Below are positions 2,371-20,045 of a stretch of DNA of 23,527 bases, in pieces. The number at the start of each line of letters is the position of its first letter. Position 1 is the first letter of the stretch. Origin of the DNA: Sphingomonadales bacterium (lineage in GTDB: Bacteria; Pseudomonadota; Alphaproteobacteria; Sphingomonadales; Sphingomonadaceae). The stretch spans positions 1-23,527 of the forward strand of contig JAIVHR010000222.1 of NCBI GenBank assembly GCA_020200935.1, read 5' to 3'. A model generated the notes under the pieces. The model ran no database searches and was not told the DNA's origin. It worked only from the letters and a program-made list of their open reading frames with translations. The translations under genes were made by a program, and so were the position numbers.

Positions 2371-2416
2371 TCCAGCGGCCTAGAAGCATTAAAGATACGG
2401 AGAGTAAAAAGGCGGC

Positions 2417-3418: not shown

Positions 3419-3432
3419 CGCGCCACGGTAGC

Positions 3433-3476
3433 GGGCGGCGCCGCATGCCGCCCTGGACCCCGGATCAAGTCCGGGG
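3433..3476. terminator. Two stem-loops between convergent genes, one a REP-like palindrome
   Basis: Between the convergent DUF1134 and Anbu genes lie two hairpins. The first pairs GGGCGGC (3433-3439) with GCCGCCC (3447-3453). The second pairs CCCCGGA (3458-3464) with TCCGGGG (3470-3476) around TCAAG. The second matches a short palindrome that, from memory, is scattered between genes in many sphingomonads and other alphaproteobacteria. No T-run follows, so intrinsic termination is not proven; its location fits a two-way transcription end or an RNA-stabilising element. Confidence 0.55.
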
Positions 3477-3487
3477 GTGACGGAAAA

Positions 3488-4261
3488 CTATGTGTCCTCT
3501 CCCTCCCCGCTCACCCCTTCCATGAAGGGCGGCATCGGGATCGCGGCGCGGGCTTCGGCGAGCGCCAGCGCCCATTTGGACGACAGCATGTCGAAATACT
3601 CGTCATGCTCTTCGATCCGGCGGGTGACGGTCGGCTTGCCCTCGTCGGTCGGGATAACGACGATGTCGAGCGGCCGGCCGACCGACAGGTTCGATCGCAT
3701 CGTCGAATCGAAGGATACGAGCCCGGTCTTCACCGCATCGTCGAGCGGCGTCTCGTAGGTCAGCGCACGATCGAGGATCGGCTTGCCGTATTTGGTCTCG
3801 CCGATCTGCATGAAAGGCCGGTCGGGCTGGCAGCTGATGAAATTGCCTTCCTTGTAGATATGGAAGAGCCGCAAGGGCCGCCCCTTGAACCGGCCGCCGA
3901 GCAGCATCGAGCCTGAAAAGCTGTACTGGCTGTCCTCGCCGGCGGTGTCCTTGATATCGGAGCGAGCCTCGTTGAGCGCTTCGCCAATCAGCCCAGCCAC
4001 GCGGTGCATGTTCGTCTGGTCGGCAAGAAAGCGGGGATCGCCGCCGTCATCCGCGTCCGCAAGCCCCTCCTGGAGCAGGGCGAAGGCAGTCTGGGTGACC
4101 GAAAGGTTTCCCGCCGTGCAAGCGATCAGCGTACGATCCTCGCTCTGTTCGAGGATATGGAGTTTCTTGTAGGAGGAGATATTGTCGATGCCCGCATTGG
4201 TCCGGGTGTCGGCGATCATCACCAACCCGTCCTTCAGCAGCATGCCCAGGCAATAGGTCAT
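3488..4261 (-). CDS. Anbu, proteasome-like (Ntn-hydrolase) peptidase
   Basis: This encodes 257 residues. Anbu is a bacterial relative of the 20S proteasome beta subunit and HslV; family members assemble into rings or open helices in the cytoplasm. The ORF begins MTYCLGMLLKDGLVMIADTR, so removing Met would expose Thr1 as the nucleophile. ADTRTNAG and the following YKKLH supply the conserved Asp and Lys positions of the fold. The start was chosen at this Met because the family begins here; an in-frame Met further upstream would bury the nucleophile. The length is normal and no damage is visible. It is the last gene of a minus-strand cluster, 93 bases after the transglutaminase gene. The substrate is unknown; the partnership with ATP-grasp and alpha-E genes points to breakdown of a ligated peptide, which is inference. 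Confidence 0.92.
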   Translation of the reverse strand: MTYCLGMLLKDGLVMIADTRTNAGIDNISSYKKLHILEQSEDRTLIACTAGNLSVTQTAFALLQEGLADADDGGDPRFLADQTNMHRVAGLIGEALNEARSDIKDTAGEDSQYSFSGSMLLGGRFKGRPLRLFHIYKEGNFISCQPDRPFMQIGETKYGKPILDRALTYETPLDDAVKTGLVSFDSTMRSNLSVGRPLDIVVIPTDEGKPTVTRRIEEHDEYFDMLSSKWALALAEARAAIPMPPFMEGVSGEGEDT

Positions 4262-4354
4262 CAAAAACCGGCTATTGTTGCCCCTGCGGAGCGGAGTAGC
4301 GCCTAAGCTGGGGTGCGCGGAAGCCGGATGCAAATCGCACTGTGGATGGCCGGC

Positions 4355-5173
4355 TTACTGTTCGGCCTGCGCCTGGGTCACGCGTACTTCGACGGTGAGG
4401 GCCTCGTCGCCGCCGCCGAGCCGCTGACCGGCGACCGGCGCCGCGTCGCGATAGTCCAACCCGCAGGCGAGGCGGACATAGGCGTCGTCGGGGCTGATGC
4501 CGTTCGCCGGATCGAAGCCGACCCAGCCGATATCGGGCAGATGCGCCTCGGCCCAGGCATGGCTCGCCTCCTGCAATTCGGCGCCATCACGGCGATAGAG
4601 ATGACCGGAAATATAGCGCGCCGGAACCCCCATCGCGCGGGCGGCGGAACAGAAGATATGCGCGTGATCCTGGCAGACGCCCCGGCTCGCCCCAAAGGCG
4701 GTCGCCGCGTCGCGCTCGACGGCATCGAGCGTCGGTTCGAAGGCGATTTCGTTGAGCAGCCGCGACATCAGCACATGCATCCGCTTGAGCGGGTCGGTTT
4801 CGCTCTCGCGGACGTCCCTCGCGAACTGGCGGATCGCCTCGTCGGCCCTTGTCAGTTCTGTCGAGCGGCGAAAGGCTTCGCGGGGCAAGGGCTCGGGCGC
4901 GTCTTCGATCATCCCGGACCGGTCGTCGGTCAACACCTCGCCCGACACGGCGATTTCGATCTCCTCGACCGGCCCGTCGATATAGAGCATCGTCATGATG
5001 TTGCCGTAGCCGTCGGTATGCCGCTTGAACCGCGCATCGCAATCGACTTCGATATGCCAGTCGACGACATGCTGGGCGGCGAAGCTGGTCGGCGTCATGC
5101 GCAGCAGCTGGACGAGCCGGCGCTGCGGCTCGCTATAGGCGTAACGCGTCGCGTGATGGATATCGAGCCGCAT
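4355..5173 (-). CDS. Transglutaminase-like cysteine protease of the Anbu cluster
   Basis: This encodes 272 residues. It belongs to the transglutaminase-like (papain-fold) family. An N-terminal beta-rich domain, MRLDIHHATRYAYSEP, precedes the catalytic domain. The likely triad is visible in order: Cys in SRGVCQDHAHIF, His in ASHAWAEAHL and Asp in GWVGFDPANG. The start overlaps the stop of the alpha-E gene by one base (TGATG), which suggests translational coupling and places it firmly in the operon. Although the frame is open far upstream, that part lies antisense to nothing useful and overlaps the alpha-E gene, so this Met is chosen. Family members of this type probably cut or form amide bonds; the actual target is unknown. 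It appears intact. Confidence 0.92.
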   Translation of the reverse strand: MRLDIHHATRYAYSEPQRRLVQLLRMTPTSFAAQHVVDWHIEVDCDARFKRHTDGYGNIMTMLYIDGPVEEIEIAVSGEVLTDDRSGMIEDAPEPLPREAFRRSTELTRADEAIRQFARDVRESETDPLKRMHVLMSRLLNEIAFEPTLDAVERDAATAFGASRGVCQDHAHIFCSAARAMGVPARYISGHLYRRDGAELQEASHAWAEAHLPDIGWVGFDPANGISPDDAYVRLACGLDYRDAAPVAGQRLGGGDEALTVEVRVTQAQAEQ

Positions 5174-6108
5174 CAATCGAACCTGAATTGCCGGGTTATC
5201 GCTTGGTTGAGCAGGCGGTTCTCGGTAATGAAGGCCTGCAGGAATTCGTGCAACCCGCCGCGTATGATGTCGCCGACCCGGGTTCTTTCGAGCCGCTTCT
5301 GCCGCAGCCGCGCCATCCTGTCGGCCTCGCCCTGGAAGTTGGTGCGCTTGCCGAGATCGTCGAGCAGTTCGACCACCTCGTCGACCGCATAGGCGAGGCT
5401 GCGCGGCAATTCGCGCCGCAAGGTCAGCATCTCGACGACGCGGGTAGGGCTCAAGCTCTCGCGATAAAGCCAGCGGAAGGCGGTGTTGGCCGAAACGGTT
5501 TGCAGGATCGTCCCCCATTGGTCGCGATCGACGATGCCGCCGACCTTTTCGCCCTCGGGCAGAATCAGGTGATATTTGACATCGATCAGCCGTGCCGTGT
5601 TGTCGGCCCGCTCGATCGCCGCGCCCAGTCTCAGAAACCAATAGCTCTCATGATGCAGCATGCGGTGAAGCGCGCCTTCGAAACCGCGAATCTCGGCCTT
5701 CAGATCCTCGACGAGATTGACCGTCGCCTGCGCCCCGCCTGTCGCCGAGCGATCGCGCACCCCGAGCCAGGCCCGATTGATGCCTTCCCAGCCCTCGCGG
5801 GTCAGCGCGGTGCGCACCGCCCGCGCATTCATCCGCGCCGCGGAGAGGCAATTGCGGATCGAACTCGAATTATCCTCGGCGAGGGTCAGGTAATTGGACA
5901 CGTTGGTCGGATTGATCGGATCGCCGGTCGCGGCGAAGCCCTCATTCGCACCGGCGACGAACAGCGCGCTGTTCCAGGCACCCTCGCCCGCCGGCCGCGC
6001 CGACAGCGCATCGAGTCGCACCGTCGCCTCGACGAGCCGCGCTGTGAATTCGGCGCGCTCCATATAGCGGCCGATCCAGTAGAGATACGAGGCGGTCCGG
6101 GCGAGCAT
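5173..6108 (-). CDS. Alpha-E domain protein (DUF403)
   Basis: This encodes 311 residues, the usual length. The all-helical alpha-E family begins MLARTASYLYWIGRYMERAE, and this signature is exact here; further conserved pieces are MLHHESYWFLRLGAAIERAD and NTAFRWLYRESLSPTRVVEM. No catalytic motif is known. It regularly sits next to circularly permuted ATP-grasp and transglutaminase genes, and fused forms exist, so it is thought to act with them in making or handling a peptide. Its ATG follows directly after the TAG of the ATP-grasp gene with no gap, and its own stop overlaps the transglutaminase start. The gene looks undamaged. Confidence 0.93.
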   Translation of the reverse strand: MLARTASYLYWIGRYMERAEFTARLVEATVRLDALSARPAGEGAWNSALFVAGANEGFAATGDPINPTNVSNYLTLAEDNSSSIRNCLSAARMNARAVRTALTREGWEGINRAWLGVRDRSATGGAQATVNLVEDLKAEIRGFEGALHRMLHHESYWFLRLGAAIERADNTARLIDVKYHLILPEGEKVGGIVDRDQWGTILQTVSANTAFRWLYRESLSPTRVVEMLTLRRELPRSLAYAVDEVVELLDDLGKRTNFQGEADRMARLRQKRLERTRVGDIIRGGLHEFLQAFITENRLLNQAITRQFRFD

Positions 6109-6126
6109 CTAATTTGCCCCCCGCGC

Positions 6127-6148
6127 CTGGGACTGGGACTGGGACTGG
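6127..6148 (-). repeat. Hexamer tandem repeat coding a Ser-Gln tail
   Basis: On the plus strand ctggga occurs three times, followed by ctgg. Read on the minus strand in the ATP-grasp frame it codes SQSQSQ, and together with an adjoining imperfect stretch gives a C-terminal tail [17 protein letters not shown]. The unit is six bases, so copy-number change keeps the reading frame and only alters tail length. Confidence 0.85.
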
Positions 6149-6771
6149 CCGGCTTGAGACTGACTTTGGCGCTGGGGGTTGCTGTCGGCGCGCAGCACGA
6201 GGCTGTCCTTGGTGCCGCCGCCCTGGCTCGAATTGACGACCAGCGAGTTTTCGACGAGCGCTACGCGCGTCAGCCCGCCCGGCACGATCTCGACATGATC
6301 GGCCCCCGACAGCACGAAGGGCCGGAAATCGACATGGCGGCCCTTGACGCCCTTTTCGGTCAGGGTCGGCACGGTCGAGAGTTCGAGCGTCGGCTGAGCG
6401 ATATAGCCGCCTGGATTATCCTTGAGCACGGCGCGAAACTCCTCGACCTCTGCGCTGGTCGCGGCCGGGCCGACAAGCATGCCGTAGCCGCCCGATCCGT
6501 CGACCTTCTTGACGACGAGCTGTTCGAGATTGTCGAGCGTATATTGCAGTGCATCCTCTTCGCGGCAGCGCCAGGTCTCGACATTGGGCAGCTTCGCCTC
6601 CTCGCCCGAATAATATTTCACGATATCGGGCATGAAGGAATAGATCGCCTTGTCGTCGGCGATGCCGCCGCCCGGTGCATTGGCGATTGTCACATTGCCG
6701 GCGAAATAGGCAGCCATGAGGCCCGGCACGCCGAGCATCGAATCCGGACGGAACATCAGCGGATCGAGAAA

Positions 6772-6782
6772 ATCGTCGCGAG
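6772..6782. other. Deletion junction in the ATP-grasp gene (junction 1)
   Basis: On the minus strand EHSFLA runs directly into a different frame reading [11 protein letters not shown]. About 40 residues expected between these blocks are missing, and the loss is not a multiple of three. Size is estimated from recalled family members. Confidence 0.75.
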
Positions 6783-7528
6783 GAAACTGTGTTCGTAAAA
6801 GGCGCTGTTGAAATGGCCCGGGGTCAGCAGCACCGCCGTCGGTTCTTTCGAGGCGCTGTCGGGGGCGACCGAATGGAGCATCTCGCGCAGCGCGTCGGGA
6901 TAGCGGTCGACCGGTTCGACCTCGAAAATCTCGAACAGCTCGGGACACAGGCGCAGCATCGCCTCGCGATTTTCGAGCATGTAGGAGACCCCCGAGGGGG
7001 TGCGGGCATTGTCCTCGAGCACGTAGAATTCGTCGGGCCCGGTACGGACCATGTCGATGCCGGCGATATGCGCATAGATACCGTGCGGCGGGCGGCGGCC
7101 GTTGACGACCGGCGTGAAGCCCGGATTGCCGAGCACGAGATCGGCGGGGACGACGCCGTCGGCGATGATCTTGCGGTCGGTATAGACATCGGCGAGGAAC
7201 ATGTTGAGCGCGGTCACCCGCTGTTCGAGCCCCTCGCTCAGCGATTGCCATTCGCCATGGGTGAAGACGCGCGGGACGATATCGAAAGGAATGATCCGCT
7301 CGGCCTCTTCCTCCTCGCCATAGACGTTGAAGGTGATGCCGAGCTGGCGAAAGGCGGCCTCGGCCGAATCCTGGCGCCGCTTCATCTCGGGTTTGGGAGT
7401 CTCTCGAATCCAGCGCGCGATCTCCTCGAACCCCGGGCGCGGCTTGCGTCCGCAGCTATACCCCCAGATCTCGTCGAAAAACTTCTGCCCTGCCATCGAC
7501 CCATCAATGCGCGAGGACGGCCCAGGGT

Positions 7529-7738
7529 TCAATCGTGGATGTGGAATCCGATTTTCACCGTCACCTGGAAATGGACGACCTTGCCGTCGGCGACGTGGCC
7601 GCGGGTATCGATCACCTCGAACCAGCCGATATCGCGCACCGTCTGCGCGGTACGCTCGACGGCGCCGCGGATCGCGTCTTCGATGCTGGTTTCCGATGTG
7701 CCGACGACCTCGGTGATCTTGTAGACATTGTCGCTCAT
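7529..7738 (-). CDS. Dodecin family flavin-binding protein
   Basis: This encodes 69 residues, the normal dodecin length. Dodecins form hollow 12-mers that bind FMN, riboflavin or CoA and buffer free flavins. The family pattern is clear: VYKITEVVGTSETSIEDAI, then AQTVRDIGWFEVIDTRGHV with the conserved Trp that stacks on flavin, then a final strand HFQVTVKIGF. GGGAGG-type sequence (plus-strand cctccc at 7744-7749) sits just upstream of the ATG. It ends 32 bases before the ATP-grasp start on the same strand, so it may be the first gene of that transcript. Divergent from the DUF885 gene, with 133 bases between starts. Confidence 0.94.
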   Translation of the reverse strand: MSDNVYKITEVVGTSETSIEDAIRGAVERTAQTVRDIGWFEVIDTRGHVADGKVVHFQVTVKIGFHIHD

Positions 7739-7871
7739 ATGGGGCCTCCCTTGACGAATCTTCCGCTAAACAACCGTCTTCTTCGGCCAACGAGCCGCAG
7801 GCGTTTTTGCTCCGTCTTGCGATTTGCGCCGGGACCGCGATAACGGCGGCGAACCATTTCGGAGACTGACG

Positions 7872-9543
7872 ATGCGCCTTGCCCTTGCCGCCCTTGCCCT
7901 TTCGCTCGCCAGCCCGGCGCTGGCGACGCCGGACGAAGACCTCGCCCAACTCGAGCAGGATTATTGGCAATGGGTGCTGCGGGAGAGCCCCATCCTCGCC
8001 ACTACCGTCGGCGTTCGCGACTATGATGACCGGGTCGGCGATATCAGCCTCGCCGCGGAGGATCGCCGGGCGGGCGAAGCGCAGGTGTTTCTCGACCGGC
8101 TTCGCGCGATTCCCGAAGGCGGGCTCTCGCCAGTCAGCCTGGTCAATCGCGGCATTCTCGAACGCCAGCTCGCCGAGAGCATCGAGGCCAACAGCTTTCC
8201 GCAGCGGGTGATGCTGTTCACGACCCTATCTGGCCCGGCTGCGGCTCTATCCCGAGGTCAATGACGAGGCGATCGCGATCAGCACTCAGGCGATCGAACA
8301 GGGCTATACGCTGCCCTGCGCGGTGCTCGACGGCTATGAGACGTCGATCTCGGGCGTGATCGGCGAGGATGTGACCCAATCGCGCTTCTACGAGCCGTTT
8401 ACGCGGCCGCGGCCGAGCGGGCTCACCGAGGTGCAGTTCGAGCGCTATGCCACCGAAGCGCGCGAGATCATCGAAACCGTGCTGCGGCCCGAATTCGAGC
8501 AGCATCTCGCCTGGTACCGGACGCAATATCTGCCGGCCTGCCGCGAGCAAGTCGGCATCTCCGCGCAGGAGGGCGGCGCCGAATATTACGCCTTTCGCGT
8601 CCGCCAGATGACGACAACCGAGCTAACGCCCGAGGAGATCCACCAGATCGGCCTCGCCGAAGCGACGCGCATCCGCGGCGAGATGGTCGAAGTCGCCGCC
8701 GAAGCCGGCTTCGACAGCCGCGAGGCTTTCATCGAGCATCTGCGCACCGACCCGCAATATTACGCCGAGACGCCCGAGGAACTGATGCAATATGTCGCTC
8801 GCGAGCTGAAGCGTCTCGACGGGCTGATGCCGACGATGTTCGAAACCCTGCCGAGGCTGCCCTACGGCATCCGCGAGATCCCGGCCGAGATCGCCGAGGG
8901 GACGACCACCGCCTATTATGGCAGCGGATCGCCCGAGAGCGGCATTTCGGGCACCTATTACGTCAACACCTCGCTGCTCGACCAGCGGCCCCTATGGGAG
9001 GTGCCGGCGCTCAGCGCGCATGAAGCGGTGCCCGGCCATCATCACCAGATCGCCCTCCAGCAGGAGCTCGATCTTCCCGAATGGCGGCGGCACATTGCCT
9101 TCTTCACCGCCTTTACCGAGGGCTGGGGGCTCTATGCCGAGCGGATCGGTCTCGATATGGGGCTTTACGACACGCCGGCCGAGAATATGGGGCGGCTGAG
9201 CTACGAGATGTGGCGCGCGGCGCGGCTCGTCGTCGATACCGGAATGCACGCGATGGGATGGCCCAAGGAACGGGCGATCGCCTTCATGCGCGAGAATACC
9301 GCGCTGACCGACGCCAATATCGAGGCCGAGGTCAATCGCTATATCTCATGGCCGGGTCAGGCGCTCGCCTACAAGCTCGGCGAGCTCAAGATCCGCGAAT
9401 TGCGCGCACGGGCCGAGACGGCGCTCGGCGAGGATTTCGACCTCCGCCGCTTCAACGATGCGGTGCTCGCCCAGGGTGCCGTGCCGCTCGACGTGCTCGA
9501 AGCGCAGATCGACCGCTGGATCGCCGAACAGCAGGGGAGCTAG
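7872..9543 (+). pseudogene. Secreted DUF885 metal-dependent hydrolase, broken by internal loss and frameshift
   Basis: The protein begins with a signal peptide, MRLALAALALSLASPALA, so it is exported. The first frame runs to QRVMLFTT and then reads 12 unrelated residues to a stop at 8264. The family sequence resumes in another frame at YLARLRLYPEVNDEAI (from 8227) and continues to the end at 9543. Relatives, as I recall them, have about 25-30 residues (a YSGWH..F-like block) between these parts, so bases are missing near 8223-8230. The remainder is well conserved: the HEAVPGHHHQ motif that resembles the zinc-binding HExxPGH motif of the family, and TEGWGLYAE. Family function is poorly known; a peptidase or related hydrolase role is suspected. 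As it stands only a 130-residue fragment would be made. Confidence 0.87.
8223..8230. other. Deletion junction in the DUF885 gene (junction 2)
   Basis: The reading frame changes between FTT and YLARL, with a stretch of about 25-30 residues absent relative to recalled relatives. The total span of 1672 bases is not divisible by three. Confidence 0.72.
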
Positions 9544-9558
9544 ATTCGCTGCGACTCG

Positions 9559-9942
9559 TCAGAAGCGCAGCAGCGAACTCCCGCTGTCTTCGCGCGCTTG
9601 GCGCAGCAATTCCTGGGTGCAGCCGGTAAAGCCTCCGGGGCCGACCGGCGAGCAGCTCATCGTTCCCGACTGGCCGACATATTCGACCGCCTGCGCGCGG
9701 GCGAGCCAGCTCTGATTGGCCGACAGATCGCGCATTTCGCGCAATTCGGGCGGGATTCGGTAACGCTCATTTTCGTCGCGGCGCACGCAGACGACGATCT
9801 CCTCGCCATTGCTCGACGGGCAGGCATCGTTGCCATAAATGACCAACACGCGTTCGCTGACCTGGGCGGCGACCGGGGTCGCCGGCAGCGCGGCGAGGCC
9901 GACCATGAGGGTGCCGACAGCAATTCCGACCCTACGCATCAT
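9559..9942 (-). CDS. Small secreted protein with four cysteines, function unknown
   Basis: This encodes 127 residues. The N-terminus MMRRVGIAVGTLMVGLAALP ending PVAAQ is a signal peptide, so the mature protein is likely periplasmic. It contains NDACPSSNGEEIVVCVRR and, later, MSCSPVGPGGFTGC, giving four cysteines that could form two disulfides. I have a recollection of similar short proteins in sphingomonads, but no named function. The start was set by GGAG about 8 bases before the first of two adjacent ATG codons. It converges on the DUF885 gene, with only 15 bases between stops and no visible terminator. Confidence 0.82.
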   Translation of the reverse strand: MMRRVGIAVGTLMVGLAALPATPVAAQVSERVLVIYGNDACPSSNGEEIVVCVRRDENERYRIPPELREMRDLSANQSWLARAQAVEYVGQSGTMSCSPVGPGGFTGCTQELLRQAREDSGSSLLRF

Positions 9943-10051
9943 CACACTTTCTCCAACTGTTCGAAGACCCAACGTATGGGCTCCCGTCAAATTTCCGCGC
10001 CAGCATGAGTGTCCCCGGCTGTCGGCAAGCTGAACCTTCGCCGCCCCTCGG

Positions 10052-10606
10052 TCAAATCCGCTTGGATGCGGCGATGGCGAACTTGCAGCCGAGCCGGATC
10101 AACCCGCTCATCAGCGGATAGGCCGGCGCCTGCTCGGCCCCTTCGGCGATCGCCGTGTCGTGATGTTCGCGCTCATCCTCGCGAAATCGCTCGATCGTTT
10201 TGGCGAGCTCGGGGTCTTCGTCGCCGAGCGCTTCGAGCTGATCGGAATAATGCTTGTCGATCTCGGTTTCGACGGCGGCCGTGCAGGCCATCGCCGCCTC
10301 GGGCCCGATCAGCGCGGTCACCGCGCCGAGCGCGAAGCCGGCGCGGTCCCAGAGCGGCTGCAGAACCGTCGGCCGCACGCCCCGCTCGGCGATGATCTCG
10401 TCGAAGCGCGCCAGATGCTCGTCTTCCTGCCGTGCCATTCGAGTGATCGAGCGCGCCGCCGGGCTGCGGTCGCCGAGCACGGCGAGCTGGCCGGCATAGA
10501 TGCGCGTCGCGCCATATTCGCCGGCCTGGTCGACCCGGATCATCGAATGGATGTCGGGCCGCGGGTCTCCGGGCCGTCTCAGCGGGGCTTGCGAATCGTC
10601 AGCCAT
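10052..10606 (-). CDS. coq7: 5-demethoxyubiquinol hydroxylase Coq7
   Basis: This encodes 184 residues. Coq7 is a di-iron hydroxylase that adds a ring hydroxyl late in ubiquinone synthesis at the inner membrane. The ligands sit in repeated helix motifs: Glu in RVDQAGEYGA, Glu and His in QEDEHLARF, Glu in AAVETEIDKHY, and Glu and His in REDEREHHDTA. The start MADDSQAPLRRPG was preferred because the longer frame upstream overlaps dsbB completely; even so, the first 28 bases overlap the 3' end of dsbB. This overlap suggests the two are co-transcribed. It ends FAIAASKRI, as the family does. It looks intact. Confidence 0.95.
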   Translation of the reverse strand: MADDSQAPLRRPGDPRPDIHSMIRVDQAGEYGATRIYAGQLAVLGDRSPAARSITRMARQEDEHLARFDEIIAERGVRPTVLQPLWDRAGFALGAVTALIGPEAAMACTAAVETEIDKHYSDQLEALGDEDPELAKTIERFREDEREHHDTAIAEGAEQAPAYPLMSGLIRLGCKFAIAASKRI

Positions 10607-11046
10607 AGGATGGTGATAGCAGCCAGAAACGAGAAAATCGCGTTGAAGCCGGCGAGCGAGATTCCGGCCAGCGTCCATTGCGGCCGATCGCAGGCGATCA
10701 CCGGGGTCGCCATGATATCCTGGAAGAAATCCCCGCTATTGGCCGTCATCGCGCAGCCGGTGATGCCTTCCCACCAGCCATATTCGACGCCGGCATGGAA
10801 GACCCCGATCGCCCCGCTGGCCATGATCAGCAACCCGGCCAGCAGCAACAGCCCCCGGCCAATTGCGCCATCGCGGATCAGGATCGCAAGCAAGGCGACC
10901 GGCACCGCCGCATAATGTGGCCAGCGCTGCCAATGGCACATTTCGCACGGGTAGAGCCCGCCCAGATATTGCGAGACCAGCGCGCCGGCCAACATAACGA
11001 TCGGCGTCGCCTGAGCGATCAGCCGCGCAAGCCCGAGGTTGGTCAA
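10579..11046 (-). CDS. dsbB: Disulfide bond formation protein B (DsbB)
   Basis: This encodes 155 residues with a TTG start. DsbB is an inner-membrane protein that reoxidises DsbA and passes electrons to quinone. The first Cys pair is in LYPCEMCHWQRWPHY (Cys34 and Cys37), and the second is in GCAMTANSGDFFQDIMATPV followed by IACD. Four hydrophobic segments are visible. No ATG or GTG lies where the family begins (first helix GLARLIAQATPIVMLAGALV); TTG followed by ACCAACCTC fits, with GGGGGAC several bases upstream. An internal ATG at residue 18 would cut into the first helix. The stop overlaps the coq7 start by 28 bases, and quinone use links the two genes in a loose way. Confidence 0.9.
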   Translation of the reverse strand: MTNLGLARLIAQATPIVMLAGALVSQYLGGLYPCEMCHWQRWPHYAAVPVALLAILIRDGAIGRGLLLLAGLLIMASGAIGVFHAGVEYGWWEGITGCAMTANSGDFFQDIMATPVIACDRPQWTLAGISLAGFNAIFSFLAAITILWLTIRKPR

Positions 11047-11086
11047 TGCTCGGTCCCCCGAATGGCGCTTCGTGGCGGTGCGCAAT

Positions 11087-13516
11087 CTAGTCGTTCGACG
11101 AAGCGACCCGTTCGCCGCGCGCCAGCCGGGCGATCGTTTCGATCGCATAATGCATCTGGAAATCCTCGATGCCCAGTTCGGCCAGCTCTTCGGCGCTCTG
11201 CGAGAAGCGCGGATCGTCCTCGATATCGTCTTCGAGCACGTCATCCTGGACCGCCGCCTCGTTGATCAGGTGGCGTCTCAGATCCGCCTCGCGGAAACGC
11301 GGTGCGTCGCGCCAGTCGGGATTCGAAAGCTGCGGCACGTCGATATCGGGCTCGATGCCGCCCTCCTGCACCGAATGGCCGGCGGGCGTGAAATAGCGCG
11401 CCGTGGTGAGCCTGAGCGCGGTCGTTTCGGTCAGCGGCAGCAAGGTCTGCACCGAACCCTTGCCGAAGCTCTGTTCGCCCATGATCAGCGCCCGCCGGTG
11501 ATCCTGCAGCGCACCGGCGACGATCTCGGAGGCCGAGGCCGACCCGGCATCGACCAGCACAACCACCGGCAGACCATGGGCATAATCGCCGGGCCGCGCA
11601 TAATAGCGCTCGATATCGCCGCTCCGGCGCCCACGCTGCGAAACGACTTCGCCGCGTTCGAGGAACACGTCCGAAACGGCGATCGCCTGGTCGAGCAGCC
11701 CGCCAGGGTTCGAGCGCAGATCGATGACATAGCCGGTCGGCCGCCCGCCCGCCGCGCGGTCGATCGCGGCGATCGCGGCGCGGACTTCCTCGCCGGTATT
11801 GCGGTTGAAGGTGTTGACGTCGATGATGCCGACGCCGTTCTCGATTTCCCATTCGACGGCGCGAAGCTCGATGATCTCGCGGGTCAGCGTGACGTCGAAA
11901 GGCTCGTCGCGGCCGGGACGGACAATGCGCAGTTCGATCGAGCTGCCCGGTTCGCCGCGCATCTGCTCGACCGCCTCGTCGAGCGTGCCGCCGAAGATCA
12001 GCACATCGTCGAGATGGGTGATATAGTCGCCGGCCTGGATGCCGGCGCGATCGGCCGGCGTATCCTCGAAGGGCGCGATGACCTTCACCGCGCCGTCCTC
12101 CATCGCGACGGTCAGGCCGAGCCCGCCATATTCGCCCTCGGTCTGCGTCCGCAGCCGGTCGAAATCGCTGACATCGAGGAAGGAGCTGTGGGGATCGAGG
12201 CTCGAAAGCATGCCGTCGATCGCGCCGCGCATCAGATCTTCGTCGCTGATTTCATCGACATATTCGGCGCGCACGCGCTCGAATACGTCCATGAACTGAT
12301 CGAGCTCGCGATAGGTATCGACGTCGACGGCGGCGATGCCGGCGGTAAAGGTCGGCTCTCCGCGGCGGCGCAATTCTATCGTCACCGTCGGCCGTTCGTC
12401 GCCGGCGCGGCCGATCGGCGCGCCCTGGCGCACCTGCTGGCCGAGCGACACATCGAGCGCGGCGAGATCGGTGATCAAAGTCGTCCAGCCGCCGCCGTGA
12501 TCGATGATGACGATCAGGCCGTAATCGCGAAAATCGCCGGCATAGCTAATGCGGCCCGATGTCGGCGCGATCACCTGCGCGCCGGGTCGGGTGGCGATGG
12601 TCAGCCCGCGCGAGCGTATGCCGGCCTCCGACACTTCGCCGAGCCCGGCGACGACCTCGCCCATCACCGGCAGGCGATAGGGTGGCCGGTCCGATTCGCC
12701 GCGGCTGGCTGCGCGGCGCGGCGGGCGGGCTTCGCCAGGGCGGGTGGGCCGGATGCGGGGGCCCGGCAGTTCGATCAGCTCGGCGCGGATCGCGGCCTGC
12801 CGGTCGAGCTCGAGCATGAGTTCGCGGATATCGGCGGCATCCTCGCCGAGCGCCATCACCCGGTCGATCTCTATCATCGCTGATCGTTCGAGCCGACGCG
12901 CGCGCAGTCGGGAGGCGGCTTCGATCGCGGCGAGCTGTTCGCGCCGGGTTTCGAGCCCTTCCCGGCGGTTGTCGAGCACCGCGATCGCGCGGTCCGCCTG
13001 CAGCCGGAGATTGGCGCCGCGCGCGACCTCGGCGCGCAGATCGGCCGTGCGTTCGCGAACGATCGGCAGCGTCGTCGAAAACAGCGCCCGGACATGGACG
13101 AGATCGCGAATACTCCCCGGCTGAACGAGGGCGAGCACGGGCGGGCGGCGGGCCATCGTCTGCAAGGCGGCGGTCAGCTGGATGATCGAGCCCTGTCGAT
13201 CGGCGAGGTTCGCGCGTTGCGCGGCCCGCAATTGCTCGATCAGCGCGACCCGGCTCTCGGCGGCGGCGAGATCGGCCTCGGCCGCCTGCACCTCGGCCGC
13301 GGCCGCGGCCTCGGCCGCCGCCGCCCGTTCGGCCTCGGTTTCGGCGGCTGCCGCCTGCTGCTCGAATTGCGCAGCGCGCTGGCGGGCGATGTCGCGCTGG
13401 CGATTGGCTTCCTGCAGCGCCTGCGCTTCCTCGGCTTGCGTCCGCGGCTGAGCCAACGCGAGCGGGGCGATCACCGCTGAAAAAAGCAGGATCATGGCGA
13501 GGAGCCGCAGGATCAT
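11087..13516 (-). CDS. EnvC-like LytM protein joined in frame to S41 carboxy-terminal protease
   Basis: One open frame of 809 residues holds what are normally two neighbouring genes. Residues 1-22 are a signal peptide; about 25-240 is a long Ala/Glu-rich coiled coil; about 290-388 is a LytM domain without the usual metal-binding His residues, as in EnvC activators of amidases. Near residue 388 ELRRRGEP runs straight into FTAGIAAVDVDTYRELDQF, the start of a CtpA-type protease. The rest has a PDZ domain (about 455-540) and the S41 catalytic motifs GSASASEIV (658-665) and SFGKGSVQT. The EnvC C-terminus and the protease start codon and most of its signal peptide are absent. Both are envelope proteins of peptidoglycan handling and protein processing. 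The fusion may be an artefact of missing sequence. Confidence 0.85.
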   Translation of the reverse strand: MILRLLAMILLFSAVIAPLALAQPRTQAEEAQALQEANRQRDIARQRAAQFEQQAAAAETEAERAAAAEAAAAAEVQAAEADLAAAESRVALIEQLRAAQRANLADRQGSIIQLTAALQTMARRPPVLALVQPGSIRDLVHVRALFSTTLPIVRERTADLRAEVARGANLRLQADRAIAVLDNRREGLETRREQLAAIEAASRLRARRLERSAMIEIDRVMALGEDAADIRELMLELDRQAAIRAELIELPGPRIRPTRPGEARPPRRAASRGESDRPPYRLPVMGEVVAGLGEVSEAGIRSRGLTIATRPGAQVIAPTSGRISYAGDFRDYGLIVIIDHGGGWTTLITDLAALDVSLGQQVRQGAPIGRAGDERPTVTIELRRRGEPTFTAGIAAVDVDTYRELDQFMDVFERVRAEYVDEISDEDLMRGAIDGMLSSLDPHSSFLDVSDFDRLRTQTEGEYGGLGLTVAMEDGAVKVIAPFEDTPADRAGIQAGDYITHLDDVLIFGGTLDEAVEQMRGEPGSSIELRIVRPGRDEPFDVTLTREIIELRAVEWEIENGVGIIDVNTFNRNTGEEVRAAIAAIDRAAGGRPTGYVIDLRSNPGGLLDQAIAVSDVFLERGEVVSQRGRRSGDIERYYARPGDYAHGLPVVVLVDAGSASASEIVAGALQDHRRALIMGEQSFGKGSVQTLLPLTETTALRLTTARYFTPAGHSVQEGGIEPDIDVPQLSNPDWRDAPRFREADLRRHLINEAAVQDDVLEDDIEDDPRFSQSAEELAELGIEDFQMHYAIETIARLARGERVASSND
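12345..12357. other. Join point of EnvC and S41 protease (junction 3)
   Basis: The LytM domain ends at RRRGEP and the next residues are the tail of a secretion signal, FTAGIAAV, followed by the mature S41 N-terminus. An internal, normally N-terminal, signal sequence remnant marks the join. In this case the frame stays open. Confidence 0.7.
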
Positions 13517-13523
13517 GCACCGC

Positions 13524-13985
13524 TCATTCCCGATGATAGGGGTGGTTGGCAAGGATCGAGGTTGCCCGCCAGAGCTGCTCGGCAAGCATCGCACGCGCCA
13601 TCAGATGCGGCCAGGTCGCCTTGCCGAAGGCGATTGTCAGATCGGCGCTCCCCCGTTCCTCGTCGTTCAGCCCGTCGGCGGCGCCGATCAGGAAACGCAC
13701 TTCGCGGATGCCCTGGTCGCGCCAGTCTTCGAGCTTCCGCGCCAGCGCGACCGATCCCAGCTGCGTTCCGCCCTCGTCGAGCGCGATCGTTCGCGCGGGT
13801 TCCTGCGGCGGCGGCGGATTGCCGCCCGTCTCGGGGAGCTCCGTCTGCTTGAACGGCCAAGTCAACCGCTTGGCGTAGCGGTCGACCAGCTCGGCTTCGG
13901 GCCCGCGACCGATCTTGCCGCGAGCGATGATATGGAGCGTCAGGCTCAGCCGCGCACCGCTTCGGCCGGCTCGCCAAAGCCCCAC
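13524..13985 (-). CDS. rlmH: 23S rRNA pseudouridine1915 N3-methyltransferase RlmH
   Basis: This encodes 153 residues from the ATG used here. RlmH is a SPOUT methyltransferase acting on 23S rRNA in the assembled ribosome. LTLHIIARGKIGRGPEAELV, RFLIGAADGLNDEE (family usually GGADG) and the C-terminal MLAEQLWRATSIL followed by NHPYHRE identify it. The start is uncertain. The family normally begins close to LTLHIIARG, but no ATG, GTG or TTG lies there in frame; the ATG at 13985 adds about 12 residues and overlaps the upstream gene by 40 bases. A CTG at 13949, overlapping the upstream stop as CTGA, would give the usual length. It ends 7 bases before the envC start, which supports one transcript. 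Confidence 0.9.
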   Translation of the reverse strand: MGLWRAGRSGARLSLTLHIIARGKIGRGPEAELVDRYAKRLTWPFKQTELPETGGNPPPPQEPARTIALDEGGTQLGSVALARKLEDWRDQGIREVRFLIGAADGLNDEERGSADLTIAFGKATWPHLMARAMLAEQLWRATSILANHPYHRE

Positions 13986-14596
13986 ATTCGCTCAAGATTG
14001 TAGAAGCTGCGCACTTCGGGGCGGAACAGATGGACGATCACGTCGCCGGCATCGAGCAGCATCCAGTCGGCGACCGGGAGCCCCTCGATCTTCACCGGAC
14101 GCGGTCTCCATTCCGTCCAGTTACGCGACTGGCTTGCGGGCCGGACGTAGCGCCGCAGCCAAGCCATTGCCGGAGCGGTTCTGGCATCGTCATTATAGCC
14201 GGGCCGGGAAATGACGGCAATGGGCGTCTTGCGCGCTATTCCCCGCCAATCCTTCCAAAGGTGGAACTGGGCCAGATTGTCGGCGCCCATCAGCCAGATG
14301 AAGCGGCGCTTGGGATAGCGGCCGGCCAGCATGTCGAGCGTATCGACCGTGTATCGGGTGCCGAGCTCCTGTTCGATCGCGGTCGGGACGATCGGCACAC
14401 CGCGGGCCATTTCACGCGCTATGGCGAGCCGCGCGGCGAGCGGCGCCATGTCGTCCGGGTTTTTGAGCGGATTGCCCGGCGAGACCAGCCACCAGACCTC
14501 GTCGAGTCCCAGTAGGCGCAGCGCGAAGCGGCTGATCCCGCGATGGGCGGCATGCGCCGGATTGAAGGAACCGCCGAGCAGCCCGGTCCTGATCAT
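13946..14596 (-). CDS. NadD N-terminal part joined in frame to RsfS C-terminal part
   Basis: One open frame of 216 residues. The first 165 or so are nicotinate-nucleotide adenylyltransferase: GGSFNPAHAAHRG at residues 8-20 holds the nucleotide-binding HxxH, followed by EVWWLVSPGNPLK, TRYTVDTLDML, FIWLMGADNLAQFH and AVISRPGY, ending WTEWR. The following residues VKIEGLPVADWMLLDAGDV, then FRPEVRSFYNLERMW, are the C-terminal part of the ribosome silencing factor RsfS, normally the next gene. The NadD C-terminal part with its SSTxxR-type motif and roughly the first 70 residues of RsfS are missing. NadD is essential for NAD synthesis in most bacteria, so a real loss is unlikely unless another copy exists. 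The frame runs on into rlmH by overlap. Confidence 0.85.
   Translation of the reverse strand: MIRTGLLGGSFNPAHAAHRGISRFALRLLGLDEVWWLVSPGNPLKNPDDMAPLAARLAIAREMARGVPIVPTAIEQELGTRYTVDTLDMLAGRYPKRRFIWLMGADNLAQFHLWKDWRGIARKTPIAVISRPGYNDDARTAPAMAWLRRYVRPASQSRNWTEWRPRPVKIEGLPVADWMLLDAGDVIVHLFRPEVRSFYNLERMWGFGEPAEAVRG
14098..14112. other. Join point of NadD and RsfS (junction 4)
   Basis: The NadD sequence RNWTEWR passes into RPVKIEGLP of RsfS. Judging from recalled family lengths, roughly 350-400 bases are missing. The join keeps the frame open, which by itself hides the damage. Confidence 0.72.
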
Positions 14597-14716
14597 AGGG
14601 TGACCTGATCCATTGCTGCTCCGCAGGGTGGCGCACCCGCCCGCGCCGCGCAAGAGAAAGCGCCTATCGACGGCGGCAAAGGCATGCGGCTAAGAACAAA
14701 CGCCAGGGGAGGCGCA

Positions 14717-15817
14717 ATGGAAAGCGACATCGAAAGCATCGGCACGGCGATCACCGGCGGCCTGGCCGCCCGCGCCGTCGAGCCCGGTCATGGCGAAGTT
14801 GGGGGCGAGGGCGACGGCGAGGCACGCGTCTGCGCCAATTGCGCGACCGAACTCGTCGGCACCCATTGCCATTTCTGCGGCCAGAAGGCGCGCGTCCATC
14901 GCAGTCTGGCGGCGATCTTCCACGAGCTCATCCACGGCGTACTCCATCTCGACGGCAAATTCTGGCGCACATTGCCGCTGCTCTGCATCCGCCCCGGAGA
15001 GCTGACGCGGCGCTATGCCGAGGGCGAGCGCGCCAAATTCGTCTCGCCGCTCGGCATGTTCCTATTTTCGGTGTTCCTGATGTTCGCGATCCTGCAGGTT
15101 TCGGGAGCCTCGCTGAGCAATCTGGCGGGCGACACCGGCACCGTTTTCAATCCCGGTGCGGCGCAGGCGAATCTCGAGGAACGACTGACCCAAGCGCGCG
15201 CCGACCGGGCCGCGATCGATCGGCAAATCGCCGCCGCCGCCGATCCCGAACAACGAACAGAGCTCGAAGGCCGGGCAGCCGAACTCGACGAGGATATAGC
15301 CGGGCTCGAAGAAGGCGAAGAGGTGCTGGCCTCGATCGGCGGATCGGAGGATGGGGAGGGCAACAGCATCGGCTTCACCACGCGCTGGGATCGCCTCGAC
15401 CGGGGCATCGCCAAGATCAATGAAAATCCCGATCTGGCGCTCTACAAGCTCCAGGCCAACGGCTATAAATTCTCCTGGCTGCTGATCCCGATCTCGGTGC
15501 CGTTCGTGTGGGTTCTGTTCTTTTATACCCGGCGCTACCGGCTCTACGACCACACGGTCTTCGTAACCTATTCACTGGCTTTCATGTCGCTGCTGGCGAT
15601 CGCGCTGACGGCACTTGGATTTGCCGGTCTGGGGAGCACATGGATCGCGGCGGCGGCGCTAATTATCCCGCTCTTCCACATATATAAGCAGCTCAAATAT
15701 GGCTACCGGCTTGGGCGCGTCGGGGCGTTGATCCGCACCGCCCTGCTCGCCAATTTCTGCTTCATCACCGCGAGCTTCTATTTCGTGCTACTGCTCGGCA
15801 TAGGCGCGCTGGGATAG
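14717..15817 (+). CDS. DUF3667 family membrane protein
   Basis: This encodes 366 residues. Near the N-terminus CANCATELVGTHCHFCGQKA has two CxxC pairs spaced like a zinc ribbon, followed by helix HELIHGVLHLDGKFWRTL, the family signature. The first hydrophobic segment is SPLGMFLFSVFLMFAILQV. A charged, probably coiled-coil stretch (about residues 150-215, many Glu/Ala/Arg) separates it from later membrane segments near SWLLIPISVPFVWVLFF, TYSLAFMSLLAIALTALGF, WIAAAALIIPLFHIY and the C-terminal FITASFYFVLLLGIGALG. The function is unknown. The start was chosen because AGGGGAGG lies about 5 bases before this ATG; a longer start exists but has no such site. Confidence 0.85.
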   Translation: MESDIESIGTAITGGLAARAVEPGHGEVGGEGDGEARVCANCATELVGTHCHFCGQKARVHRSLAAIFHELIHGVLHLDGKFWRTLPLLCIRPGELTRRYAEGERAKFVSPLGMFLFSVFLMFAILQVSGASLSNLAGDTGTVFNPGAAQANLEERLTQARADRAAIDRQIAAAADPEQRTELEGRAAELDEDIAGLEEGEEVLASIGGSEDGEGNSIGFTTRWDRLDRGIAKINENPDLALYKLQANGYKFSWLLIPISVPFVWVLFFYTRRYRLYDHTVFVTYSLAFMSLLAIALTALGFAGLGSTWIAAAALIIPLFHIYKQLKYGYRLGRVGALIRTALLANFCFITASFYFVLLLGIGALG

Positions 15818-15874
15818 CGATCCCCTCCTTGAACCCGCGCGCCGGCTGCGCGATCATCGGTCGGAAACGAAACA

Positions 15875-15890
15875 CGGGAGCAATGCTGTG
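15875..15890 (+). promoter_or_regulatory. Ribosome binding site that decides a GTG start
   Basis: CGGGAG at 15875-15880 is followed after 7 bases by the GTG that opens the universal stress protein gene. An ATG at 15883 lies closer to the site but is in another frame and stops after six codons, so GTG is the start. Confidence 0.7.
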
Positions 15891-16709
15891 GACCACGCCT
15901 TGAATATTCTGCTCGCATCGGACCTGACGGCGCGGGGTGACCGGCCCTTCGACCGCGCGGTCACCCTCGCCGGCGAAACCGGCGGTCGATTCGCATTGCT
16001 CCATGTCGTCGAGCCCGGTTCGAAAATAGAATCGGCAAGAGAGGATGAGGTGATCGAGGCGATACGCGACGATCTTCCCGAAACCGGCGCGGAAATCGAG
16101 ATCCTGATCGGCAAGGGTTCGGCCCCGAAGACGATTTCCGAAGTCGCCGCACAGCGCGATGCCGACCTGATCGTGACCGGCCCGGCGCGGCACAATTCTC
16201 TCGGCGACATCACCCTCGGAACGGCCGTCGACTATGTGGTTCGCCGCGCCAGGGCGCCGGTGCTCGTGGTCAAGAAGCGGGCGCATGCACCCTACCGATC
16301 GATGGTGGTGGCGACCGATTTTTCAGACTGCTCGCGAGAAGCATTGATCGCGGCGGCAAAGATGTTTCCCGATGCCGAAATCGAATTGGTGCACGCCTTC
16401 CATCCCGCCTATGGCGGATTGGTCGACCAGGATGACGCGCGCGAAGAAGCCGGCGAGGAAACCCTAGAAATGATGGACGAATTTCTTGCGAAGCTGCCCG
16501 ACGAACTGCGCGAACGCCTCGAGATAAAAATCGGCGAGGGAGAGCTTCACACGGTCATCTGGCAGGAAATCGAGGCGCGCGCGGCCGACCTGCTGGTGGT
16601 CGGGACCCACGGGCGCAGCGGACTGATGCAGGCGGCGATCGGATCGAACGCCCAGACGATGCTGACCTGGTCGCCGGTCGACGTGCTGATGGTCCGGCAG
16701 CTCAAATAG
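15888..16709 (+). CDS. Tandem universal stress protein (UspA family)
   Basis: This encodes 273 residues with two UspA domains. Domain one (about 1-133) opens with [18 protein letters not shown] and domain two (about 137-273) with [18 protein letters not shown]. Domain two carries the full ATP-binding loop [15 protein letters not shown], matching G-x2-G-x9-G-S. The matching loop of domain one reads [15 protein letters not shown], with Arg in place of the second Gly, so its nucleotide binding may be weaker or lost. Such proteins act in the cytoplasm under stress; the exact target is unknown. The gene runs plus-strand and its 3' end overlaps the annotated end of ftsH by 8 bases, an overlap that arises only because the ftsH end appears to be out of frame. 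Confidence 0.92.
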
Positions 16710-16745
16710 GCGAAATGACGGCTCCGGTCAGGCGCCTTCGGTTGC

Positions 16746-16756
16746 AGGGCTTGTGG
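16746..16756. other. Deletion junction near the ftsH 3' end (junction 5)
   Basis: The conserved stretch [15 protein letters not shown] stops abruptly, where relatives continue with a LANALLEYETL-like block. In the +1/+2 shifted frame the following bases read SPATEGA and a stop. Tentative, since FtsH tails vary. Confidence 0.55.
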
Positions 16757-17689
16757 AGCTCGTCGATATTCTCGGTCAGCACCTTGCGCGCGGTTTGCTC
16801 GGCTTCCTCGATCAGCCGGCGCACCTCGATGTCGATCAGCTTGAAGGTCTCTTCGGAAACCTGCTGGTTGCGCGCGACGCTGTGGCCGAGGAACACCTCT
16901 TCCTGATTGTCGCGATAGCGCAGCCAGCCCAATTTCTCGCTCATGCCGTATTCCATGACCATCGAGCGGGCGAGGTCGGTCGCCTGCTGGATGTCGTTGG
17001 CGGCGCCGGTATTGAGCGCGTCCTCGCCATAGATCAGTTGCTCGGCGATGCGGCCGCCGAAGGCCAGCGCGAGACGCGCTTTCATCTGCTCCATCGACAT
17101 CGAATAGCGATCGCGATCGGGCAGGTTCCAGGTCACGCCGAGCGCGCGGCCGCGCGGGATGATCGTCACCTTGTGCAAAGGATCGCAGCCCGGCACGTGG
17201 AGCGAGACGAGCGCGTGGCCGCTTTCGTGATAGGCGGTCGCCTTTTTCTCATCCTCGGTCATCACCATGGATTTGCGTTCCGAACCCATCATGACCTTGT
17301 CCTTGGCCTCCTCGAACTCGTCCATCGCAACGAGCCGCTTGCCGTTGCGCGCGGCAAGGAGAGCGGCCTCGTTGACGAGATTGGCGAGATCGGCGCCCGA
17401 GAAGCCGGGCGTGCCGCGGGCGATCGTGCGCGGATCGACATCGGGCGCCAGCGGCACCTTCTTCATATGCACTTCGAGGATCTTCTCGCGACCCTCGATA
17501 TCGGGACGCGGCACGACGACCTGGCGATCGAAGCGGCCGGGCCGCAAGAGCGCCGGATCGAGCACGTCGGGCCGGTTGGTCGCGGCGATGATGATCACGC
17601 CCTCGTTGGCTTCGAAACCGTCCATCTCGACGAGCAGCTGGTTCAAGGTCTGTTCGCGCTCGTCATTGCCGTTTCCGAGGCCAGCGCCC

Positions 17690-17738
<49 letters not shown>

Positions 17739-18231
17739 AATTCTTCTTGGCCTGCTCGAACATGTCGCGGACACGGCTGGCGCCGACGCCGACGAACATC
17801 TCGACGAAATCGGAGCCCGAAATGGTGAAGAAGGGCACGCCCGCCTCGCCGGCGATCGCGCGGGCGAGCAGGGTCTTGCCGGTGCCGGGCGAGCCGACGA
17901 GCAGCGCGCCCTTGGGAATCTGGCCACCGAGACGCGAGAATTTCGCCGGATCCTTGAGGAACTCGACGATTTCCTGCAATTCCTCGCGCGCCTCGTCGAT
18001 GCCGGCGACGTCTTCGAAGGTCACCTTGCCCTGTTTCTCGGTCAGCAATTTGGCCTTCGACTTGCCGAAGCCCATCGCGCCCGATCCGGCATTCTTCTGC
18101 ATCTGGCGAATAATGAAGAAGGCGATGCCGAAGATCAGGATGAAGGGCAGCAGATTGACGAGGATATAGGTCCAGATGCCAGCGCGCTCCTCGGGCTTGC
18201 CCTGGATCTCGACATTATTCTCGCGCAACTC

Positions 18232-18244
18232 GTCGACTGCTGCC
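18232..18244. other. Deletion junction near the ftsH 5' end (junction 6)
   Basis: The ATG frame from 18274 reads [13 protein letters not shown] then runs out of the family; the FtsH frame picks up as [12 protein letters not shown]. The first membrane helix and periplasmic domain, normally between them, are absent. Confidence 0.75.
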
Positions 18245-18333
18245 GCCTTCGCGCGGATCCTTGTCGTCGCTCATACGCTCTCGCCTTTTCCTACGGAGCC
18301 AAAATAGGGATTTGGACGGAAAACACCAATAGC

Positions 18334-18374
18334 AACGCCCGATGAACAAGCGGTGGATGTGTCGGTCGGGCGTT
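18334..18374. promoter_or_regulatory. Inverted repeat upstream of ftsH
   Basis: AACGCCCGA at 18334-18342 is complementary to TCGGGCGTT at 18366-18374, a perfect 9-bp pair with 23 bases between. It lies in the 112-base gap between tilS and ftsH. On the plus strand the right arm runs into TTTTT, but no plus-strand gene ends here; on the minus strand no T-run follows. It may be a leader stem or binding site for ftsH; its role is not shown. Confidence 0.35.
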
Positions 18375-18386
18375 TTTCGAACCGTT

Positions 18387-19322
18387 TCAACCGGTTCGGC
18401 GCGGCGGTGCCGGTGAAAAGCGCCATTCGCTACCGCCTTCGCACACCACGCCGCCCAGGCTCCGTTTCTCTCCCGCCTCAAGCCCCGCGATCGCTTTCTC
18501 GAGCGCCGGACCCGAAGGCGCGGTGCCTGGCGCCACCCGGCCGAGACAGTCGCGCACCAGCCGTCGGCGGATTTCGGCGGGCAGCCCGGCCGGGTCGAGA
18601 CACAGGCAATCACCCTCGTCGCGCACCGCCCGCCGTGCCGCCCGGACGGTTGCCCATTCGAGCGCGGCGGCGGCTTCCGACAGTGCCGTGGCACTGCGCG
18701 CCAGCCCGGCGGGATCGAGATCGGGCAGGTCTTCCAGAATGCGCCGCAGCCTGACCCGGTCGAAACGCTCTTCGCGATTGCTCGGATCGTCGATGGCGGT
18801 GAAGGGGCTGTCGGCGACGATCGCCTCGAGCGCGCGCTTGCGGAAACCGAGCAGCGGACGAATCACCCGGCGGTTGATCGCCCGGACCGCCGCAAGCCCT
18901 TCAACCCCGCTGCCGCGCAGCAGCCGCATGACCATCGTTTCGAGCTGGTCGTCGGCATGATGGGCGGTGGCTACCCAGTCGAGCCCTTCGCTCTCGCGCC
19001 ACTCTTCGAGCAGCGCATAGCGCGCAGCGCGGGCGCCGGCCTGGAGGTTGCCGGTGATCGGTTCGGGCGGGCTGAGGATCGCGTGCGGGACGCCGAGCTC
19101 GGCGGAGATGGCGGCGACATGCTTCGCTTCATCGGCGCTTTCGGGGCGCAGCCGATGATCGACGGTGGCGGCGGCGACGGCATCGCCGAGCGTCCGATGC
19201 GCCAGCAGCAGCAGCGCGAGGCTGTCCGGCCCGCCCGACAACGCGATGCCGATGCGCTGGCTTTCCGGCCCGATCAGCCCTGCAAGATCGGCGCGAAAGC
19301 GCTTGAGGAGCGCGGCGTCCAT
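18387..19322 (-). CDS. tilS: tRNA(Ile)-lysidine synthetase TilS
   Basis: This encodes 311 residues, normal for the alphaproteobacterial form. TilS uses ATP to attach lysine to C34 of tRNA-Ile(CAU), which changes its codon from AUG to AUA. The PP-loop SGGPDS is at residues 29-34, followed by ATVDHRLRPESADEA, TAHHADDQLETMVMRLLRGS, VIRPLLGFRK and DDPSNREERFDRVRLR. The ORF extends upstream by 29 codons over cpoB, but MDAALLKRF is the family-like start and lies 16 bases after the cpoB stop. A 7-bp hairpin (18378-18398) overlaps the stop codon but lacks a T-run. The gene appears whole and is placed between cpoB and ftsH as is usual in the group. Confidence 0.93.
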   Translation of the reverse strand: MDAALLKRFRADLAGLIGPESQRIGIALSGGPDSLALLLLAHRTLGDAVAAATVDHRLRPESADEAKHVAAISAELGVPHAILSPPEPITGNLQAGARAARYALLEEWRESEGLDWVATAHHADDQLETMVMRLLRGSGVEGLAAVRAINRRVIRPLLGFRKRALEAIVADSPFTAIDDPSNREERFDRVRLRRILEDLPDLDPAGLARSATALSEAAAALEWATVRAARRAVRDEGDCLCLDPAGLPAEIRRRLVRDCLGRVAPGTAPSGPALEKAIAGLEAGEKRSLGGVVCEGGSEWRFSPAPPRRTG

Positions 19323-19338
19323 ATCGCGCCCTCCGTCA

Positions 19339-20045
19339 TCAATCGCATTCCGCCGCGGTGCGGGCGGCCGGCAGCTGTTCGGCGATATCGCTACGGATAT
19401 TTCCGCCATAGACCTCCTGCAGCTCGCCGAAGGCCAGGCAGGCGCGGTCCTTGTAGTTGAGCGCGGTCAGCGCGACGCCGAGGAAGAACAGGCTGTCGGC
19501 GGCGCGCTCTCCATTCGGCAGCTGCTGATAATTGCGGACGAAGATTTCGGTCGCGCTCGCCGGCTTGTCATCGTCGAGATAGGCGCGGCCCAGAAGGTTG
19601 CGCGCATAGCTTTCGAAGCGATGACCGGGAAATTGTTCGACCGTCTCGCGCAATTGGGTGCGGGCCGCCGCATAATCGCCGTCGCGCCAGAGCCGGTAGC
19701 CGCGAACATAGGCGGCTTCGCCCGGATCGTCGGGGAGCGGCGGCTCGCTGCCCTGGGCGGAGAAGGGCCCCTCACCGGATGACGCCGCCTCGGCCGCCTC
19801 TTCGCCGGCGCCATCATCATCCGCACCGGCCTCGTCGCGCTCTTCGTTGGCCATCGCGCGCAGATTGTCCGACACCGCCTGCCTTTGGCCTTCGTCGCTT
19901 GGGGCGCTTTGGGTACTCGTATCGTCGAAGCCGGGGACATCGTCGTCGAGGGCCGGTCGACGCGGCGGTCGGCATCGCCGCTCTGGGCCTGCAAGCCGGC
20001 CGGCGCGGCGCTCAACAGCAGGGCGGCGACAATCAGGTGGCGCAT
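19339..20045 (-). pseudogene. cpoB: CpoB/YbgF, Tol-Pal associated periplasmic protein, broken by internal loss
   Basis: CpoB works with the Tol-Pal system and coordinates peptidoglycan synthesis with outer-membrane constriction. The first frame gives a signal peptide MRHLIVAALLLSAAPAGLQAQ followed by SGDADRRVDR, as at the start of the coiled-coil domain. Then the frame changes; the remaining part in the second frame, preceded by acidic linker sequence, includes AYVRGYRLWRDGDYAAARTQ, RNLLGRAYLDDDKPASA and ADSLFFLGVALTALN, which are TPR-like repeats of the C-terminal domain. The coiled-coil block expected in between is missing near 19948-19962. The second frame has an ATG at 19875, but without signal peptide. 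The neighbours, tilS and ftsH downstream, support the identification. Total length is not divisible by three. Confidence 0.82.
19948..19962. other. Deletion junction in cpoB (junction 7)
   Basis: The CpoB N-terminus ADRRVDR, where the family goes on to a LExxM-type coiled coil, changes frame into ALDDDVPGFDDTSTQSAP, an acidic linker. The missing size is not well defined because CpoB linkers vary. Confidence 0.65.

Follow-up and report, generated by a model that had tools for sequence, protein, structure and literature searches.

Broken genes in a contig of a Parasphingopyxis genome bin are most likely an ordinary assembly artefact

The window analyzed here is the whole of a 23,527-bp contig (C13) from a Parasphingopyxis (Sphingomonadales) genome bin, and it raises the question of whether conserved genes that lack blocks of sequence reflect damage to the genome of the sampled organism or a fault in its assembly. 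The bin consists of 343 contigs that amount to 2.11 Mb, with a completeness of 66.09%; nine congeners have genomes of 2.4–3.7 Mb. Seven breaks had been reported in a first-pass annotation, near positions 6777, 8226, 12350, 14105, 16750, 18238, and 19955, and the comparisons show all of them close to these positions, as sharp breaks. They had been described as five frame shifts and two in-frame fusions; the fusions (joins 3 and 4) stand, but only four shifts do (joins 1, 2, 6, and 7), join 5 being a run-out. Joins 1–4 were sized by blastn against the relatives, together with search rows read by hand for G005, G007, and G002, and joins 5–7 were placed by protein alignment only. Order and orientation match those of G008 on both sides of the breaks. 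In the left arm of the window (positions 1–7515), collinearity with the relatives is incomplete: positions 1–649 and 1294–2265 match distant places in G009, in G002, G005, and G007 the counterpart of positions 5000–7510 is separate from the remaining sequence, and positions ~3515–7515 share one contig with the rest of the window in G008. This arrangement represents either a real rearrangement or further joins.

The first two joins interrupt a gene for a circularly permuted ATP-grasp protein and one for a DUF885 protein, as follows.

6109..6777, minus strand: C-terminal part (222 aa) of the circularly permuted ATP-grasp protein (Pfam CP_ATPgrasp_2 positions 205–374 of 374, E 1.2e-67)
6777..6778: join 1, 118 nt missing, frame shift (blastn, G008 and G001; by hand, G005, G007, and G002)
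6778..7521, minus strand: N-terminal part (~247 aa) of the circularly permuted ATP-grasp protein
7872..8225, plus strand: DUF885 protein, aa 1–118, identical to aa 1–118 of P0001
8225..8226: join 2, 74 nt missing, frame shift (blastn; P0001 has 25 extra residues here)
8227..9543, plus strand: DUF885 protein, aa 144–581 and stop, identical to aa 144–581 of P0001

The block missing at join 1 is 118 nt long in every relative that spans it (the five named above; G003 has no coverage across this join). At join 2 it is 74 nt in G009, G003, G008, G001, and G006 by blastn and in G005, G007, and G002 by hand, G004 being uninformative.

Joins 3 and 4 each bring two neighboring genes into a single open reading frame.

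11087..12352, minus strand: CtpA (S41 peptidase) minus its first ~32 aa in G008 numbering (alignment and domain search)
12353..12355: join 3, ~164–185 nt missing (412 against G001), in-frame EnvC-CtpA fusion
12356..13552, minus strand: EnvC-like M23 protein minus its last ~10 aa (alignment and domain search)
13946..14101, minus strand: C-terminal part of RsfS and stop (RsfS profile positions 59–98 of 98)
14101..14102: join 4, 377 nt missing, in-frame NadD-RsfS fusion (blastn, six of six relatives; P0121 against P0122)
14102..14596, minus strand: NadD aa 1–165, identical to aa 1–165 of P0122 (209 aa)

EnvC and CtpA thus share one frame of 835 aa. The length missing at join 3 is 164 and 166 nt against G009 and G008 (blastn) and ~164 and ~185 nt against G006 and G004 (by hand), but its size is uncertain because G001 gives 412 nt. 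At join 4 the block is 377 nt in all six relatives compared by blastn and 377–378 nt by hand (G005, G007, and G002). The missing length is therefore constant among spanning relatives at three of the seven joins (1, 2, and 4) and variable at join 3. The NadD-RsfS fusion is present in the protein database as a seemingly complete protein, P0121, which comes from the window's own 23,527-bp contig. Beyond nadD, the window has only 87 nt (positions 14597–14683) where G006, G009, G004, G008, and G001 have 1.8–3.4 kb, and in G006 the interval between nadD and the next gene carries a 427-aa Aldedh-family gene, which we take to be proA; a similar frame of 455 aa is present in G008. A search of the bin with the 427-aa protein, conducted without a positive control, gave no match. 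Here an eighth block, larger than the others, may have been lost, or the sequence may be genuinely absent from the organism.

The remaining joins affect FtsH, at two places, and a YbgF-type protein.

16749..16750: join 5, C-terminus of FtsH (~63 aa) and the sequence beyond it missing (protein alignment)
16750..18246, minus strand: body of FtsH, ~aa 90–588 of 651 (~95% identity to G008)
18236..18246: join 6, FtsH ~aa 14–89 missing, frame shift (protein alignment)
18236..18274, minus strand: FtsH aa 1–13 (protein alignment)
19345..19911, minus strand: C-terminal part of a YbgF/CpoB-type TPR protein (alignment and domain search)
19911..19955: join 7 (near 19953), ~85 aa missing, frame shift (protein alignment)
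19953..20045, minus strand: first ~31 aa of the YbgF/CpoB-type protein (protein alignment)

At join 5, FtsH, which lacks its final ~63 of 651 residues, continues into unrelated sequence. This break adjoins a gene for a universal stress protein that has two Usp stretches (positions 15888–16709); in G006 and G008 the room between the aligned genes is too small for it.

Intact copies of three of the broken genes, those for DUF885, NadD, and YbgF, were sought among public proteins, and for two of the three (DUF885 and NadD) there is a counterpart that is 100% identical over the residues present. P0001, a 581-aa NCBI MAG protein from an 11,189-bp contig of Parasphingopyxis sp., is identical to the window's DUF885 protein at all 118 residues before join 2 and all 438 after it, the sole difference being exactly the 74-nt block. 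P0122, the 209-aa NadD, is from a 3,007-bp contig of Parasphingopyxis sp. and shows 100% identity to the window at the 165 residues ahead of join 4. For YbgF, no intact copy from the same species was found among the matches listed (the best 120 of 208), where the window's own fragment is the only match of 100%. It may be that P0001 and P0122 come from another assembly of the reads behind this bin.

These whole counterparts bear on the possibility that the deletions are real and recent in the sampled strain, through a deletion burst or the onset of genome decay. We regard this as highly improbable, since such deletions would strike NadD and FtsH among other proteins and since the losses, both in the window and in the contigs discussed below, mostly disregard the reading frame: the lengths of 118, 74, 377, 220, 277, 289, 385, 143, and 194 nt are not multiples of three, as opposed to 180 nt (in contig C71). 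In addition, the pieces of the broken genes have no sign of relaxed selection. In codon comparisons with G008 and G006, ten pieces, comprising both sides of joins 1–4 and, for FtsH and YbgF, only the longer piece of each (the body of FtsH and the C-terminal part of YbgF), had dN/dS values of 0.08–0.43; the values for five intact genes of this contig were 0.18–0.66. For the ATP-grasp pieces and for one of the intact genes, G008 was the only comparison. Relaxed selection or decay was thus not detected by dN/dS in these ten pieces, in which purifying selection persists. One result is what a real deletion would likewise predict: a search of the bin with a 20-kb query from G008, which did not extend to the block of join 1, listed no match to those of joins 2–7 among the 40 of 332 candidates that were scored, although at this level of identity short blocks could be missed. 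Within the same limits, the search gave no sign that the blocks had been relocated elsewhere in the bin. That a natural Parasphingopyxis strain very recently lost many short blocks throughout its genome, some of them from nadD and ftsH, and still persists is extremely hard to credit.

Two other candidate causes were considered and rejected. Dropout driven by GC content does not account for joins 1–4, because the missing blocks, as represented in the relatives, are 52–70% GC and are not consistently richer than the sequence beside them; in contig C71, two blocks are richer in GC than their flanks (75–76% as compared with 66–68%). Regarding repeat-mediated deletion, none of the 20 direct-repeat families listed, out of 56, has copies at two joins (the listing also comprised 25 of the 45 inverted pairs), and it should be noted that a repeat partner inside a missing block is invisible from the window.

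The same defect occurs elsewhere in the bin. Proteins from 1.64 Mb of the 2.96-Mb genome of G009 were compared by tblastn with bin contigs and with controls; the sample included 29 of the 343 contigs, with a usable homolog in 15 of the 29 (contig C4, which is all N, was left out), and the controls were 23 contigs or stretches from G001, G003, G004, G006, and G008. The breaks exceed chance, with six internal losses in 58.3 kb of aligned sequence in the bin and none in 166.8 kb in the controls, although the control stretches were picked partly because they had already been found in earlier searches. The window contributes one of the six in 16.1 kb, the detector having scored one of its seven breaks as internal, and the other bin contigs contribute five in 42.1 kb, which differs from the control rate with a binomial p of 3e-4. 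The suggestion that the damage is clustered in 13 kb is therefore not borne out, the window being, by this detector, no richer in internal losses than the rest of the bin. The five losses outside the window lie on 3 of the 14 contigs for which the reference supplies a homolog (C7 with three, C15 and C292 with one each), and blastn agrees with tblastn on 220 and 385 nt in C7, 232 nt in C15 (234 nt by tblastn, in frame), and 277 nt in C292; a 289-nt loss in C7 is indicated by tblastn only. In C71, blastn shows losses of 143, 180, and 194 nt against one relative each, where the tblastn detector shows no internal loss. Blastn also shows two gaps, of 155 and 1,113 nt, in the control G001, and the control G006 has two small possible frame shifts (2 and 13 nt), which were left out of the count. 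When terminal truncations, with up to 183 aa unaligned, are included, the calls rise to 4 in the window's 16.1 kb, 17 in the 42.1 kb from elsewhere in the bin, and 10 in the 166.8 kb of controls, but natural divergence is behind some terminal calls, since one variable protein was called in G001, G003, and C71. The occurrence of the same kind of loss on other bin contigs is a further argument against real deletions in the sampled strain.

The earlier proposal that the breaks are contig joins with lost gap sequence is supported by the fact that joins 1, 2, and 4 each show one length of loss in all spanning relatives, by the lack of relaxed selection beside the breaks, by the similar breaks elsewhere in the bin, and by the whole, identical counterparts for two of the three genes searched. 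Additional support comes from N runs, of which the bin contigs examined have three short ones, of 47, 68, and 50 nt. The run of 47 nt in C9 stands where G006 has ~261 nt, and that of 68 nt in C71 stands where a 50%-identical homolog implies ~239 nt (both by hand); both gaps are therefore under-sized. Thus, the N runs understate the gap in both of the measurable cases, of three found, by ~170–215 nt. Contigs C71 and C9 also contain stretches of ~35–85 nt (locus L048 in C71 at ~12780–12880 and 14180–14320; locus L036 in C9 at ~3510–3660 and 9717–9790) that have many copies in G006 or G008, often on both strands, and may be palindromic repeats dispersed in genomes of this genus.

Taken together, comparisons at the level of sequence make it very probable that all seven losses are assembly artefacts in which contigs were joined and the gap sequence was dropped. 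Short gaps (~70–400 nt) would have been left between contigs of the bin, probably through low read depth; the contigs would then have been linked, probably via read pairs, with order and orientation correct, and the gap written out as a few Ns or none. In this explanation we infer the low depth, the use of read pairs, and the program that dropped the gaps. The largest loss measured from both sides, 385 nt (412 nt against G001 at join 3), suits gaps that lie inside a read-pair insert and speaks against real deletion. It should be recognized that the absence of Ns is evidence against this explanation: scaffolders usually write Ns at joins, so that N-free joins are untypical, yet the window contains no N at all and each of the seven joins is N-free. 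Furthermore, N-free losses of 277–385 nt do not fit a single constant underestimate of gap size. A variant of the artefact reading is that the scaffolds initially had Ns at the joins and that a later processing step removed most of them, which would reconcile the N-free joins with the three surviving runs of 47–68 nt; this is possible but rather doubtful, as the survival of those runs speaks against blanket removal.

Joins without Ns are also what would be expected if chimeric molecules or reads, arising for example in whole-genome amplification, had joined nearby sequences before assembly, and a completeness of 66% with small contigs would suit an amplified single cell as well. However, amplification chimeras are mostly inverted, whereas the measured joins leave order and orientation intact and omit a short block, and the bin has short N runs, as scaffolds do. 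We consider an origin in chimeras very unlikely. The broken genes of the window are most likely an ordinary assembly artefact and no real biological feature. Such joins make false frame shifts and false fusions, here EnvC-CtpA and NadD-RsfS, inside contigs, and anyone scanning for damaged genes or new fusions should begin by checking whether a defect recurs across the assembly.

A narrow search of the literature found no description of this artefact in MAGs, but its components have parallels. In BESST scaffolding (PMC4262078), as in the explanation favored here, read pairs link contigs and the size of the gap is estimated; N-free joins do not appear in the part of that description drawn on here, and the N-free step proposed for this bin would be an addition to it. 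The fragmentation of genes in draft bacterial genomes was documented by Klassen and Currie in 2012 (PMC3322347). In the part of their account considered here, open reading frames are broken by assembly quality and not by biology, more severely in poorer assemblies, and in this respect the present genes are similar. They differ in that the earlier account concerns fragmented genes in drafts generally, whereas in this bin the pieces appear to have been butted together within one contig, giving rise to false frame shifts and fusions.
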